Positions 16,099 to 61,190 of a stretch of 64,000 nucleotides of DNA are shown in pieces (position 1 is the first letter of the stretch; the number at the start of each line of letters is the position of its first letter). The position numbers were made by a program, and so were the translations under genes. This DNA is from Sycon ciliatum (Eukaryota > Porifera > Calcarea > Leucosolenida > Sycettidae), in assembly GCF_964019385.1 (NCBI RefSeq), contig NC_088644.1:37668942-37732941 (forward strand), read 5' to 3'. Below the pieces are notes generated by a model. That model had not been told where the DNA came from. It searched no databases and saw nothing but the letters and a program-made list of their open reading frames with translations.

Positions 16099-16186
16099 CA
16101 CAAAGGCACACAATGAAAACCTTGGCAAATTTATTCCGTTGTGACTCCGAGTTTCATGGCTGAACCAATCATCAGACAACGATATA
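16099..16186 (-). mobile_element. Short hammerhead-bearing insertion (class P), only in copy A
   Basis: About 87 bp that is missing from copy B at about 59,658. On the minus strand it consists of a hammerhead followed by ~40 nt that ends near CATTGTGTG. The same layout follows the Penelope-like hammerhead at 17,742. I read it as an extremely 5'-truncated Penelope-like 3' end. Confidence 0.6.
16137..16181 (-). ncRNA. Type I hammerhead ribozyme (class P)
   Basis: In minus-strand order: stem I 5' strand CGTTGT; core CTGATGA; a 13-nt stem-loop II with TGG/CCA pairing around TTCAG and a T-T mismatch at its base; core GAAA; stem III ACT/AGT with loop CGG; cleavage triplet GTC; stem I 3' strand ACAACG. 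Stem I pairs perfectly over 6 bp. All invariant core positions of the hammerhead (CUGANGA, GAAA, NUH) are present. The weak stem II may lower activity. Confidence 0.8.
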
Positions 16187-16334
16187 TTCGATATTGTGCG
16201 CCATCACGCAATCAATCCTCCTCCCCTGTTTCTCATCCACCCTCTCCCTCACGCACCCTGTCTGTTTGTGTATCAGTCTGTCTGAGGCTGTCTTTCTGTC
16301 TGACGCTGTCTGTCTGTTTGTATGTATGGCTCTC

Positions 16335-16612
16335 TGTCTCTCTCTCTCTCTCTCTCTCTCTCTCTCTCTCTCTCTCTCTCTCTCTCTCTCTCTCTCTCTC
16401 TCTCTCTCTCTCTCTCTCTCTCTGTCTCTCTGTCTTTCTCTCTCTCTGTGTCTCTCTGTCTCTCTCTGTGTCTGTCTCTGCCTCTCGCTCTGTCTCTCTC
16501 TGTCTCTCTTTCTCTCTCTGTCTCTCTCTGTCTGTCTCTGTCTGTCTGTGTGTCTCTCTCTTGCTTTCTCTCTCTCTCTCTCTCTCTCTCTCTCTCTCTC
16601 TCTCTCTCTCTC
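16335..16612. repeat. TC/CTGT microsatellite
   Basis: Imperfect (TC)n with interspersed TG, ending in (TATC)n at 16,612-16,630. It is expanded in copy B (59,800-60,357). The apparent long Leu/Ser ORFs here are artefacts of the repeat. Confidence 0.95.
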
Positions 16613-16630
16613 TATCTATCTATCTATCTA

Positions 16631-16852
16631 TACAGTATTATGCTCCCTAGCGTCAGCAATGTCGTTAGGTTGAGCACTCTTACCTTAGCGCGAACCCTTG
16701 CCGCTCGCCTTGTGCAACGCTCACTGCTCTTGGAGCATTTCGAGCACTCTTGGCGGGGTTTGCTTCACGGAAACGTATTTCATTGCGAAGAGCTGCGCTT
16801 TGGTCCTCTGAGCTGTGCTGAGGAGCTCTAACAGAGCGACACAGTTGCTGTT
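16631..16852 (+). mobile_element. Class R hammerhead unit (retrozyme-like), truncated at 3' end
   Basis: A ~220-bp unit that begins after (TATC)n and contains two GAGCACTCTT motifs. It ends in a hammerhead-shaped sequence whose GAAA core is mutated to GACA. Copy B has the same unit at 60,361-60,590, followed by a second diverged unit. Here the 3' strand of stem I is cut off after CA, where the Penelope-like fragment begins. It has no coding capacity. Confidence 0.6.
16813..16852 (+). ncRNA. Decayed class R hammerhead (GACA core)
   Basis: CTGTG, then CTGAGGA, stem II GCTC/GAGC around TAACA, then GACA where GAAA is required, then stem III ACAG/CTGT. The 3' strand of stem I is replaced by the Penelope-like fragment. 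The intact relative at 48,881 has GAAA and the full CACAG. Predicted inactive. Confidence 0.7.
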
Positions 16853-16860
16853 CATGTGAG

Positions 16861-17427
16861 AGGCCTGGCAACGTCCTGAAAAAGATCTTCAACCGACATA
16901 ACGTGAAGGTTAGCTATTCATGTATGCCCAACATCGCAGCGATTATTAGTGGGCACAACAAGCGGCAACTGATACAAGAACCTCCTGAAAAGCCTTGCAA
17001 TTGTAGAAAAAAGCAGGAATGCCCCATGGAAGGACGTTGCCAGGCCTCTCACATCATCTATGAAGCACACGTCACCAGCCAGGATGAGCTCAGGACATAC
17101 ATCGGCTCAGCAGAGACAACGTTCAAAACAAGATACAACAACCACACGATGTCCTTCCGCCACGAAAAGTACCGCACTAACACGGAGCTCTCCAAACACC
17201 TCTGGAAAAAGAAAAACGACGACAAAGAGTATCACCTGTCCTGGAGAATCAAGGACAAGGCCAGCTCCTACAACCCCGCAACGAAGAGATGTTGCCTTTG
17301 CACCACGGAGAAGGTGCGTATACTCACTGCTGACAAGACCAAAATCCTCAACAAGCGAAGTGAAATCATCGCCAAATGTCGTCATGCAAACAAATACCGG
17401 CTCGCTAAGTATAACGGAATCACGTAA
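16861..17427 (+). pseudogene. Penelope-like ORF, RT C-end and GIY-YIG endonuclease
   Basis: The frame is open from about 16,861, with no ATG at its start because the reverse transcriptase is lost. It begins NVLKKIFNRHNVKVSYSCMP, the typical hinge after the Penelope RT. It continues with the zinc-like linker CNCRKKQECP and GRC, the IIYEA and YIG pair of the GIY-YIG nuclease, FKTRYNNH with the catalytic Arg, TELSKHLW, CCLCTTEK and ILNKRSE. These are the standard landmarks of the Penelope endonuclease. The fragment is otherwise intact to its stop. Confidence 0.85.
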
Positions 17428-17741
17428 AACCGGACATGGGCAGAGCAACCTGATGCCCAATGAAACCAGACACACTGCACCATTATTGTTATGATTAACG
17501 CCAAATATAGCACCGTAATGGCCTTACACCCCCTGACGCCAGGCATGCGCTAGTTAACTCCAGATTTACATGCTCCATTCAGCGCTTGTCACAGTAATGG
17601 ACAATTGATATCAATATTTTACACTGCCTGCACCTAGCAGTAACTCTTCACTCTTCACACTTCACGCTTTCTTTTTGTGCGCCTTGCTGTGTGGTTGTGT
17701 ATTTCTTTAGTGGACCTGACAGCCCTGTTTTAGTTAGAAAA

Positions 17742-17784
17742 GTTGCCTGACGATTGAAAAACTCAAGAAACTCGGAGTAGCAAC
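17742..17784 (+). ncRNA. Type I hammerhead ribozyme in the Penelope-like 3' region (class P)
   Basis: Stem I GTTGC (17,742-17,746) pairs with GCAAC (17,780-17,784). The core CTGACGA is at 17,747-17,753. Stem II TTGA/TCAA closes an AAAAC loop. GAAA is at 17,767-17,770. Stem III ACT/AGT closes a CGG loop, and the cleavage triplet is GTA. Every required core base is present. The 3-bp stem III is typical of minimal Penelope-type hammerheads, which are thought to work best as dimers. Confidence 0.88.
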
Positions 17785-17841
17785 GGATTGTGTTTTCTTG
17801 GTGAGGACCGCTTCCATTGTATCTATAATATCTATCTATCT

Positions 17842-59660: not shown

Positions 59661-59789
59661 TCGATATGTGCGCCATCACGCAAGTCAATCCTCCTCCCCT
59701 GTTTCTCATCCACCCTCTCCCTGACGCACCCTGTCTGTTGTGTATCAGACTGTCTGAGGCTGTCTTTCTGTCTGACGCGGTCTGTTTGT

Positions 59790-60357
59790 TTGTATGTCTG
59801 GCTCTCTGTCTCTGTCTCTCTGTCTCTCTCTGTCTCTCTGTCTTTCTCTCTCTCTCTGTGTCTCTCTCTCTGTGTCTCTCTGTCTCTCTCTCTGTCTGTC
59901 TCTGCCTCTCGCGCTGTCTCTCTGTCTCTCTTTCTCTCTCTGTCTGTCTCTCTCTGGCTGTGTGTCTCTCTCTTGCTTTCTCTCTTTCTCTCTCTCTCTC
60001 TCTCTCTCTCTCTCTCTCTCTCTCTCTCTCTCTCTCTCTCTCTCTCTCTCCCCTCTCCCTCTCCCTCTCTCTCCCTCTCCCTCTCCCTCTCCCTCTCTCT
60101 CTCTCTCTCTCTCTCTCTCTCTCTCATCTCTCTCTCTCTCTCTCTCTCTCTCTCTCTCTCTCTCTCTCTCTCTCTCTCTCTCTCTCTCTCTCTCTCTCCC
60201 TCTCCCTCCTCTCTCTCTCTCTCTCTCTCTCTCTCTCTCTCTCTCTCTCTCTCTCTCTCTCTCTCTCTCTCTCTCTCTCTCTCTCTCTCTCTCTCTCTCT
60301 CTCTCTCTCTCTCTCTCTCTCTCTCTCTCTCTCTCTCTCTCTCTCTCTCTCTCTCTC
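59790..60357. repeat. TC microsatellite, expanded
   Basis: About 570 bp of (TC)n with CCTCTCCC variants. It is longer than in copy A. The Leu/Ser and Arg/Glu frames through it are not genes. Confidence 0.95.
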
Positions 60358-60360
60358 ATC

Positions 60361-60590
60361 TATACAGTATTATGCTCCCTAGCGTCAGCAATGTCGTTAG
60401 GTTGAGCACTCTTACTTAAGCCGCGAACCCTTGCCGCTCGCCTTGTGCAACGCTCACTGCTCTTGGAGCATTTCGAGCACTCTTGGCGGGGGTTTGCTTC
60501 ACGGAAACGTATTTCATTGCGAAGAGCTGCGCTTTGGTCCTCTGAGCTGTGCTGAGGAGCTCTAACAGAGCGACATAGTTGCTGTTCACA
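60361..60590 (+). mobile_element. Class R hammerhead unit 1 (decayed ribozyme)
   Basis: The counterpart of 16,631-16,852 with its 3' end intact. It ends in a hammerhead (60,547-60,590) with stem I CTGTG opposite CACA, CTGAGGA, stem II GCTC/GAGC, but GACA in place of GAAA. Followed by (TATC)3 and unit 2. Confidence 0.65.
60547..60590 (+). ncRNA. Decayed class R hammerhead (GACA core)
   Basis: Shares the GACA core change with copy A, so this mutation predates the split of the two copies. An additional change in stem III (C to T) is private to copy B. Predicted inactive. Confidence 0.7.
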
Positions 60591-60605
60591 AATTTATCTA
60601 TCTAT

Positions 60606-60829
60606 CTATTGAGTATTTCGCTCCTGCTCTTGTAGCAGTTGAGCACTCTTGCGTGGGGTAGTGCCTTTGCTGTTTGCGTATGCAGAGCTCACTGACTTGT
60701 CAGTTTGAGCACTCTGGCAAGGTACGTTCGGGCCTGATTGGAAATTTTTATTTCCATTGCTATCAGGTTCGGCCTCATTTCCTCTGTGCTGCGCTGATGA
60801 GTTCAAAAAGAACGAAACAGCATGCTGTC
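60606..60829 (+). mobile_element. Class R hammerhead unit 2, tandem to unit 1
   Basis: About 224 bp. Its start (ATTGAGTATTTCGCTCC, then GTTGAGCACTCTTGCG) aligns with unit 1, and it ends at the cleavage base of the intact hammerhead at 60,789. After it the sequence restarts with CGCAGATTGAGTATC, the same unit start. Unit-ribozyme-unit order is the layout of retrozymes, the small non-coding retroelements that spread through circular RNA. Confidence 0.65.
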
Positions 60830-60834
60830 CGCAG
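60789..60834 (+). ncRNA. Type I hammerhead ribozyme (class R), intact
   Basis: Stem I CTGCG (60,789-60,793) pairs with CGCAG (60,830-60,834). Core CTGATGA at 60,794-60,800. Stem II GTTC/GAAC closes AAAAA. GAAA is at 60,814-60,817. Stem III ACAG/CTGT closes CATG. The cleavage triplet is GTC. Compared with 48,881, stem I has C-G for T-A and stem II has T-A for C-G, both compensatory. Confidence 0.92.
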
Positions 60835-60869
60835 ATTGAGTATCTATAATATTATCTATCTATCTCTCT

Positions 60870-61190
60870 ATCTACAAATATTACACAGCAATGAATCAAA
60901 CAAGTCTCATTCCACTGTTACTCCGAGTTTCGTGTCAGAACACTTCATCAGACAGCAATATGACCAAGACTAACAATCACTAGAATATATATACGGAGAA
61001 GGGGGCAAGGTGATGGCGGTACATTTCAATAGCGCGAGGAAAAGGGATGACAAAATCAGCGTGATTATAAGAGGAAAAAGATGTATAGAGCATAGCCAGG
61101 GTAGAGAAACAGCGCGATTTTCTGGCAACACATCAGTACAGATTTGTGCTGCATTGTTACACATCAAATTGTGACCTAGGGTGGTAAAAA
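60870..61190 (-). mobile_element. Class P hammerhead repeat (copy B)
   Basis: The counterpart of 17,842-18,190, lying between (TATC)n tracts. It has no ORF. Confidence 0.5.
60915..60956 (-). ncRNA. Type I hammerhead ribozyme (class P), near intact
   Basis: Minus strand: stem I GCTGT with ACAGT (four Watson-Crick pairs plus wobbles), CTGATGA, one extra A, stem II GTGT/ACAC around TCTG, GAAA, stem III ACT/AGT around CGG, cleavage triplet GTA. The bulged A next to stem II may reduce activity. Confidence 0.72.

Follow-up and report, generated by a model that had tools for sequence, protein, structure and literature searches.

Hammerhead ribozyme motifs of two classes in Sycon ciliatum, probably carried by Penelope-like elements and by retrozyme-like units

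A 64,000-nt stretch of the Sycon ciliatum genome (NC_088644.1, assembly GCF_964019385.1), hereafter the window, to the whole of which all the coordinates refer, contains hammerhead motifs that we confirmed as genuine and far above chance. These hammerheads are probably carried by two kinds of retroelement: those of class P by Penelope-like elements (PLEs), as the 3' ends of the latter, and those of class R by non-coding, retrozyme-like units of about 227–230 nt. A pattern common to both classes is that the copies end at a fixed short distance past the hammerhead.

The content of the window is eukaryotic-looking, with open reading frames (ORFs) of the LINE-type reverse transcriptase/endonuclease, along with long (CT)n, (ATCT)n, and TACATG arrays and a single gap of 200 bases at 18501-18700. 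One region is present twice, in the form of near-duplicates of 16–18 kb: copy A (48-18500) and copy B (45720-61311) are 85–96% identical across 14 alignment blocks—only those of more than 80 nt and more than 85% identity being considered, with the weaker ones dropped—and are separated by large indels in between. The two copies may be haplotypes laid end to end without having been collapsed, or else a genuine duplication; under either circumstance, each one constitutes an empty-site control for the other.

Results

Hammerhead motifs in the window

The strict type I scan required CTGANGA, a stem II of at least 3 bp (with a mismatch at the foot being tolerated), GAAA, H17, a stem I of at least 4 bp, and 2 bp of stem III beyond A15.1-U16.1; the relaxed scan followed the same rules, but with a single bulged base being permitted at the stem II foot. 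The former gave 7 sites in the window versus none in 100 dinucleotide shuffles, the latter 9 sites versus 36 matches over 1500 such shuffles. An initial annotation of the window had named six intact or near-intact type I hammerheads, five of which passed the strict scan with the CUGANGA/GAAA/NUH core, three stems, and an open stem I—16136-16182(-), 17742-17784(+), 48635-48677(-), 48881-48925(+), and 60789-60834(+)—while the sixth, near 60915(-), was recovered only with one bulge at the foot of stem II. The motif at 16136-16182 has a T.T mismatch at that same foot. The motif at 41078(+) passed the strict scan solely through an alternative stem III segment of 22 nt, and the relaxed scan added 60915 as well as 17891, the latter through a stem III segment of 52 nt.

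The five motifs that had been annotated as decayed proved to be so, whether in core, stems, or length: at 60547 and 16813 GACA replaces GAAA; at 41077 the motif stops within stem III; at 17891 the core letters are kept, with pairs being lost in stems I and III; and at 10889 the motif is reduced to its 3' part. Since 16813/60547, 17891/60915, and 10889/55028 are partner pairs within the duplicated region, the number of independent loci is lower than that of the motifs. The proposed division into two sequence classes, both within retroelements and with class R having the longer stem III, likewise fits our results, P with the PLEs and R with retrozyme-like units. We make no claim for a further strict-scan pass at 4059-4096(+), located within the largest of the foldbacks described below, whose stem II is of 3 bp with wobble pairs and whose stem III is palindromic (class P model: 8.5 bits, E 4.9), which match could be due to chance.

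Class P copies

An 82-bp insertion on the minus strand of copy A (16099..16180), found by the strict scan, has its empty site in copy B: a single GATGTA is present at 59654-59659, versus the GATGTA (16093-16098) and GATATA (16181-16186), differing by one mismatch, that flank the 82 bp in copy A. The insertion comprises the hammerhead 16136-16182, with H17 at 16143, and the 44 nt beyond the predicted cut; in its own orientation, the insertion begins within stem I, five bases ahead of the core, and the two outermost possible stem I bases fall in the flanking repeat. A second insertion, of 115 bp, in copy B (48600..48714, minus strand), also detected by the strict scan, contains the hammerhead 48635-48677, with H17 at 48640, and 40 nt past the predicted cut, between the target repeats TTATAT (48594-48599) and TTTATAT (48715-48721). 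At the corresponding site in copy A, a different hairpin of 32 nt lies between TTTATAT repeats (2755-2800), which hairpin we rejected as a remnant of the 115-bp insertion because the local alignment was matched or beaten by 659 of 2000 shuffles; TTTATAT-type repeats surround unrelated inserts in the two copies.

A longer, 5'-truncated copy of a PLE (16854..17819, plus strand) is supported by its lack of a match in copy B, by its ORF, and by junction analysis. An endonuclease-like ORF is followed there by a 3' region, by a class P hammerhead, and by the end CATTG 40 nt past the cut, with the target TATCTATAATAT directly after, at 17820. The ORF remnant (16876..17427, plus strand), which would be a C-terminal part, displays in translation the pattern IIY...YIG...R...H...E...N, which arrangement, judged by eye, we read as that of a putative PLE GIY-YIG endonuclease. 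The predicted structure, with a mean pLDDT of 35, was too poor to use. In the same orientation and about 315 nt downstream of the ORF stop is the strict-scan hammerhead 17742..17784, with predicted cleavage after 17779. At the 5' end of the copy, the first 24 bases (16854-16877) are an inverted duplicate of 17031-17054, a type of 5'-end rearrangement that would be in keeping with an aborted target-primed copy. This single ORF-bearing copy begins in the endonuclease-like part, and no reverse transcriptase is present in it.

Two further class P hammerheads, at 60915 and 17891, are located at the end of pieces of about 330 bp resembling pseudo-long terminal repeats (pseudo-LTRs), both on the minus strand: 60855..61200, recovered by the relaxed scan, whose tail abuts a (TATC)n array; and its partner 17831..18197, with the decayed hammerhead, the two being 90% identical over 369 columns and having ends that include array or are approximate. 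A remnant at 10869..10914 (plus strand), with a duplicate at 55008-55053 that the initial annotation had not listed, retains the 3' part of the hammerhead only.

A minimal type I hammerhead thus stands near the end of four class P copies, with the distance from the predicted cut to the end of the element being 44 nt in the 82-bp insertion, 40 in the 115-bp insertion, 40 in the PLE copy, and about 47 in the piece at 60855..61200, where the end in the array is approximate. An AT-rich target duplication is present in two of these four (GATGTA/GATATA and TTATAT/TTTATAT), and the two others lie in arrays. The best interpretation of class P is that of a PLE end, on account of the copy preceded by an endonuclease-like ORF and of the two short insertions flanked by target repeats.

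Class R copies

Two units of class R, R1 and R2, are neighbors on the plus strand of copy B and yet divergent, with array in between. R1 (60366..60595; 230 nt), which is supported by the alignment with R2, is 98% identical to its partner in copy A (16634..16854, plus strand), whose 3' end is removed where the PLE copy starts; given its GACA core, R1 is probably inactive. R2 (60608..60843) contains the hammerhead 60789-60834, with predicted cleavage after 60829, and its first bases, ATTGAGTAT at 60608-60616, are repeated at 60835-60843, at a spacing of 227. A solitary hammerhead, R3 (48876..48933, plus strand; predicted cleavage after 48920), lies between TACATG-type repeats and is 93% identical to R1 over 48876-48929 (54 bases) and 81% to R2 over 48876-48933 (some 58 bases); R3 shares the 3' end of R2 and is shortened to 54–58 bp. 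A fragment at 41053..41116 (plus strand), 97% identical to R2 over 64 bp, stops before the cleavage site; a foldback element at 41125-41246 lies directly past it. Finally, the 14-nt tail of R2 (CGCAGATTGAGTAT), beginning at the predicted cleavage site, is found within the (ATCT)n array at 18267..18280 (plus strand) and again at 18361, on both occasions with an extra G in front and array on both sides, so that the two are probably a single event copied along with the array.

When R1 and R2 were compared by BLAST, the alignment was confined to the end with the hammerhead and to a weak match of the initial 25 bases (E 0.042); nevertheless, their bodies without the hammerhead are homologous, none of 1000 shuffles aligning as well either globally or locally, and the local alignment of the bodies starts at AGTATT in both. 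The units start with AGTATT in R1 and (TTG)AGTATT in R2, whereas past the predicted cut the sequences are CGCAGATTGAGTAT in R2, CACAGATTTGAGTG in R3, and CACAAATTTA in R1; on a circular reading the tail continues into the start. In R2, tail and start have 8 nt in common, a degree of matching to the R2 tail that is reached by 50 of the 63,958 12-mers of the window, 22 of them (in 4 places) outside the R2 start and the 18260-18380 array. Because the tail runs into the start when read as a circle, R2 has the appearance of a circle traversed once, or of a single multimer unit, with the opening 9–14 nt past the cut. Copies of class R ending at that distance would be expected from a circular or multimeric RNA template.

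Upon being folded as circles, the class R units were 69, 62, and 62% paired, with 6, 13, and 46 of 200 shuffles folding at least as well. The search by eye for a B box, on the basis of a consensus, gave a weak candidate in R2 and none in R1, and we accordingly set aside the reading of class R as a pol III short interspersed element (SINE).

Junctions common to the two classes

The sequence TATCTATAATAT directly follows both the PLE copy in copy A (17820) and R2 in copy B (60841), with no third occurrence in the window; this common junction, a single event, may reflect the same choice by an endonuclease, or else the replacement of R2 by the PLE. At seven of nine junctions, at least 20% of the next 40 bases were TATC- or TACATG-type repeat, versus 7.9% of random positions; but since five of the nine share one duplicated array locus, with two of these representing one insertion in its copy A and copy B versions, and since the point used for the junction of the hammerhead at 17742 was 4 nt short of the element end, we regard that excess as only suggestive.

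Covariance models and covariation

When the entire window was searched against Rfam at E up to 10, just two of the 69 matches were to hammerheads, both of them to HH9 (RF02275), at 60777 (R2; 29.2 bits, E 0.0032) and 48871 (R3; 26.2 bits, E 0.029). The same scores in small-region searches corresponded to E values of 2.5e-5 (501 bases) and 1.6e-4 (351 bases), respectively, and the decayed motif at 16800 gave an E of 0.49. We constructed two covariance models, from five class R and five class P motifs, in which the training members score high by construction: thus 79.7 bits for R1 (60542-60596) in the R model and, in the P model, 70.5 bits for the 82-bp insertion, 68.6 for the hammerhead of the PLE copy, and 67.9 for that near 60915 (60909-60961). 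Among motifs not used in training, the P model gave 19.4 bits (E 0.0024) for each of 10869, 55008, and the R2 hammerhead, and 13.3 bits (E 0.17) for that of R3.

Covariation in stems I and II, which had been proposed for both classes, was examined with five sequences per class against 500 shuffles, and is fair for stem I of class P, where three of five pairs changed on both sides, but weak for class R. In class P, both members had changed in 4 of 12 pairs, a count reached by 59 of the shuffles, whereas the 7 cells changed on both sides, together with the covariation score, were reached by none; stem II was paired in only 55% of the cells, two of the five rows being out of register there. In class R, both members had changed in 2 of 13 pairs (a count reached by 142 of the 500) and the score was reached by 2. 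In neither class did the number of further pair types exceed that of the shuffles (R, 500/500; P, 359/500).

Other features of the window

Between 2940 and 4310 are four consecutive foldback hairpins with (ATT)n in between, having no match in copy B, whose arms of 50, 20, 36, and 101 nt are 90–100% complementary; two of these each enclose a tRNA gene (Lys-CTT, 3184-3256; Ser-TGA, 3386-3460), and the first resembles the MIR8643 hairpin of Rfam, with a score below the threshold. At 33598-33649 is a perfect palindrome whose arms, of 24 nt, enclose a 4-nt loop, and at 42956-43830 an inverted repeat whose 402-nt arms are 97% complementary and lie 71 nt apart. An ORF at 13741-15228 matches glycosyl hydrolase family 28 (polygalacturonase-like), an odd finding for an animal genome.

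Discussion

What we observed directly are the motifs, the ends of the copies, and one filled/empty pair, from which we propose the following scheme. The RNA of class P would be reverse-transcribed starting about 40–47 nt past the predicted cut, and the copies would often terminate early, which terminations would leave some insertions with little beyond the ribozyme and the tail. The transcript of class R would be cut by its hammerhead and then either joined into a circle or left multimeric, to be reverse-transcribed from a fixed point 9–14 nt past the cut; one lap would result in a unit-length copy, and an early stop in a solitary hammerhead. The copying enzyme would most likely be that of the PLE.

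A number of results weigh against the assignment to PLEs and retrozyme-like units. No hammerhead of the window reached the Rfam gathering score (the best having 29.2 bits versus 52), although that score is a cut-off of the library and not part of the definition of the ribozyme; class P had no Rfam hammerhead match at all at E up to 10, either in the window or in the small regions; and the top match of the R model outside its training set, the motif at 48635, was background (11 bits, E 0.66). The endonuclease-like ORF had no match in Pfam (E up to 10) or in the PDB (E up to 1). There is no head-to-tail array of class R within the window, the z-scores of the circle folds were modest (-2.27, -1.76, and -0.66), and the terminal repeat of R2, taken on its own, could be a target duplication. 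The minimum-energy fold, moreover, was the hammerhead in none of the seven motifs folded (z-scores from -1.62 to +0.39), and in the five evaluated the hammerhead fold lay 1.5–7.6 kcal/mol above the minimum (-9.3/-10.8, -8.9/-10.7, -5.7/-10.4, -2.4/-10.0, and -4.0/-11.4 kcal/mol). Energy models leave the contacts of the hammerhead core unscored. Since, in addition, PLE hammerheads are reported to be active as dimers (PMC7761336) or with protein (PMC11167929), the folding energies do not settle the matter of activity.

The broken motifs at 41077, 17891, and 10889, the GACA of R1 in both copies, and the deviation of the minimum-energy folds from the hammerhead would all be in keeping with relics devoid of cleavage activity that resemble one another through the common descent of repeats; we nonetheless consider that explanation quite improbable, as five motifs retain the core and three stems—one of them with the mismatch at the foot of stem II—despite having different letters in stems I and II. 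A collection of chance matches within a repeat-rich window, for which the shortness of the motif and the unreached gathering scores might speak, we discount almost entirely, that reading being already contradicted by the nine sites versus 36 matches in 1500 shuffles and by an insertion with its empty site. A less improbable alternative, though still an unlikely one, is that class R is an ordinary linear SINE, never circular, with a hammerhead near its 3' end by chance and with ATTGAGTAT as a target duplication. The copies of class R in the window are indeed single rather than tandem, both R1 and R2 lie within (TATC)n arrays, and a direct repeat of 9 bp is of a usual length for a target duplication; but the starts of R1 and R2 both carry AGTATT, and GATT(T)GAGT is common to the tails of R2 and R3 in different targets, which recurrence across copies and targets means that those letters belong to the element.

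With respect to known systems, class P resembles the PLEs, which carry minimal type I hammerheads in pseudo-LTRs (PMC7761336; Frangieh et al. 2024, PMC11167929) and whose reverse transcription begins inside their RNA, and not at the 3' end (PMC11167929), in having a type I hammerhead with a short stem III, an end shortly past the ribozyme, AT-rich target repeats, and, in one copy, an endonuclease-like ORF upstream. Class P differs from the known PLEs in its stem III of 3 bp with a 3-nt loop, in the lack of a reverse transcriptase in its sole ORF-bearing copy, itself truncated, and in two insertions of only 82 and 115 bp; its tail is GT-rich, whereas the anole PLE starts in an AC-rich stem-loop (PMC11167929). 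Class R, for its part, shares with the metazoan non-LTR retrozymes (Cervera and de la Pena 2020, PMC7229834) a type I hammerhead with a longer stem III, the absence of coding sequence, the presence of PLE-like sequence alongside, and a length, of 227 and 230 nt, within the published 170–400 nt; its GC content is 0.48–0.53, the published ones being below 50%, and its units in the window are single, whereas those retrozymes are tandem. The core and stem II letters of class R are close to those of HH9. The LTR retrozymes of plants are also retroelements with hammerheads, for which a filled/empty pair between two citrus genomes was described (PMC4918200), but have type III hammerheads, LTRs, and 4-bp target duplications, unlike the present elements. 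A search of viral contigs with the P and R hammerhead patterns and the endonuclease, and of phages by tblastn, from which records near the genome of the window were possibly excluded, revealed no relatives.

The elements are new members of kinds already known, and the evidence on insertion ends is the part worth following. The initial annotation had considered the presence of both classes in one window unusual, but it is less so than was stated there, as their coexistence in one genome has been published for several animals (PMC7229834, PMC7761336). PLEs have been regarded as the likely mobilizers of the animal retrozymes, given that the two coexist and have hammerheads in common, and given the tandem copies (PMC7229834); the role of the PLE hammerheads has been called unknown (PMC7761336). 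The literature on retrozymes and PLE hammerheads, as represented mostly by titles and the beginnings of abstracts, contained no retrozyme ends fixed past the cut and no solitary hammerhead with an empty site; nor did the portions consulted contain a 14-nt class R tail starting at the cut or a target base common to a retrozyme and a PLE in duplicates.

That 14-nt tail and the target base common to R2 and the PLE, one event each, hint at a PLE-driven mobility of retrozymes. That PLE enzymes insert retrozymes here and that the genome keeps footprints of hammerhead cleavage is a doubtful proposal at present; if it were true, the tail starting at the cut would be complementary DNA copied from an RNA after its self-cleavage, and few mobile products of such a route would be smaller than the nearly bare hammerheads, of about 54 and 82 bp. 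Dispersed minimal hammerheads have been reported in animal genomes, and the 82-bp insertion suggests a simple way in which these may have arisen, through the truncation of PLE copies at the ribozyme. More direct evidence on mobilization by PLEs would come from sites that are filled in one copy and empty in another, from the constancy of the end points, and from common junctions, which features can be counted genome-wide, and a nearly bare motif beside its empty site helps to make the movement of such elements testable.

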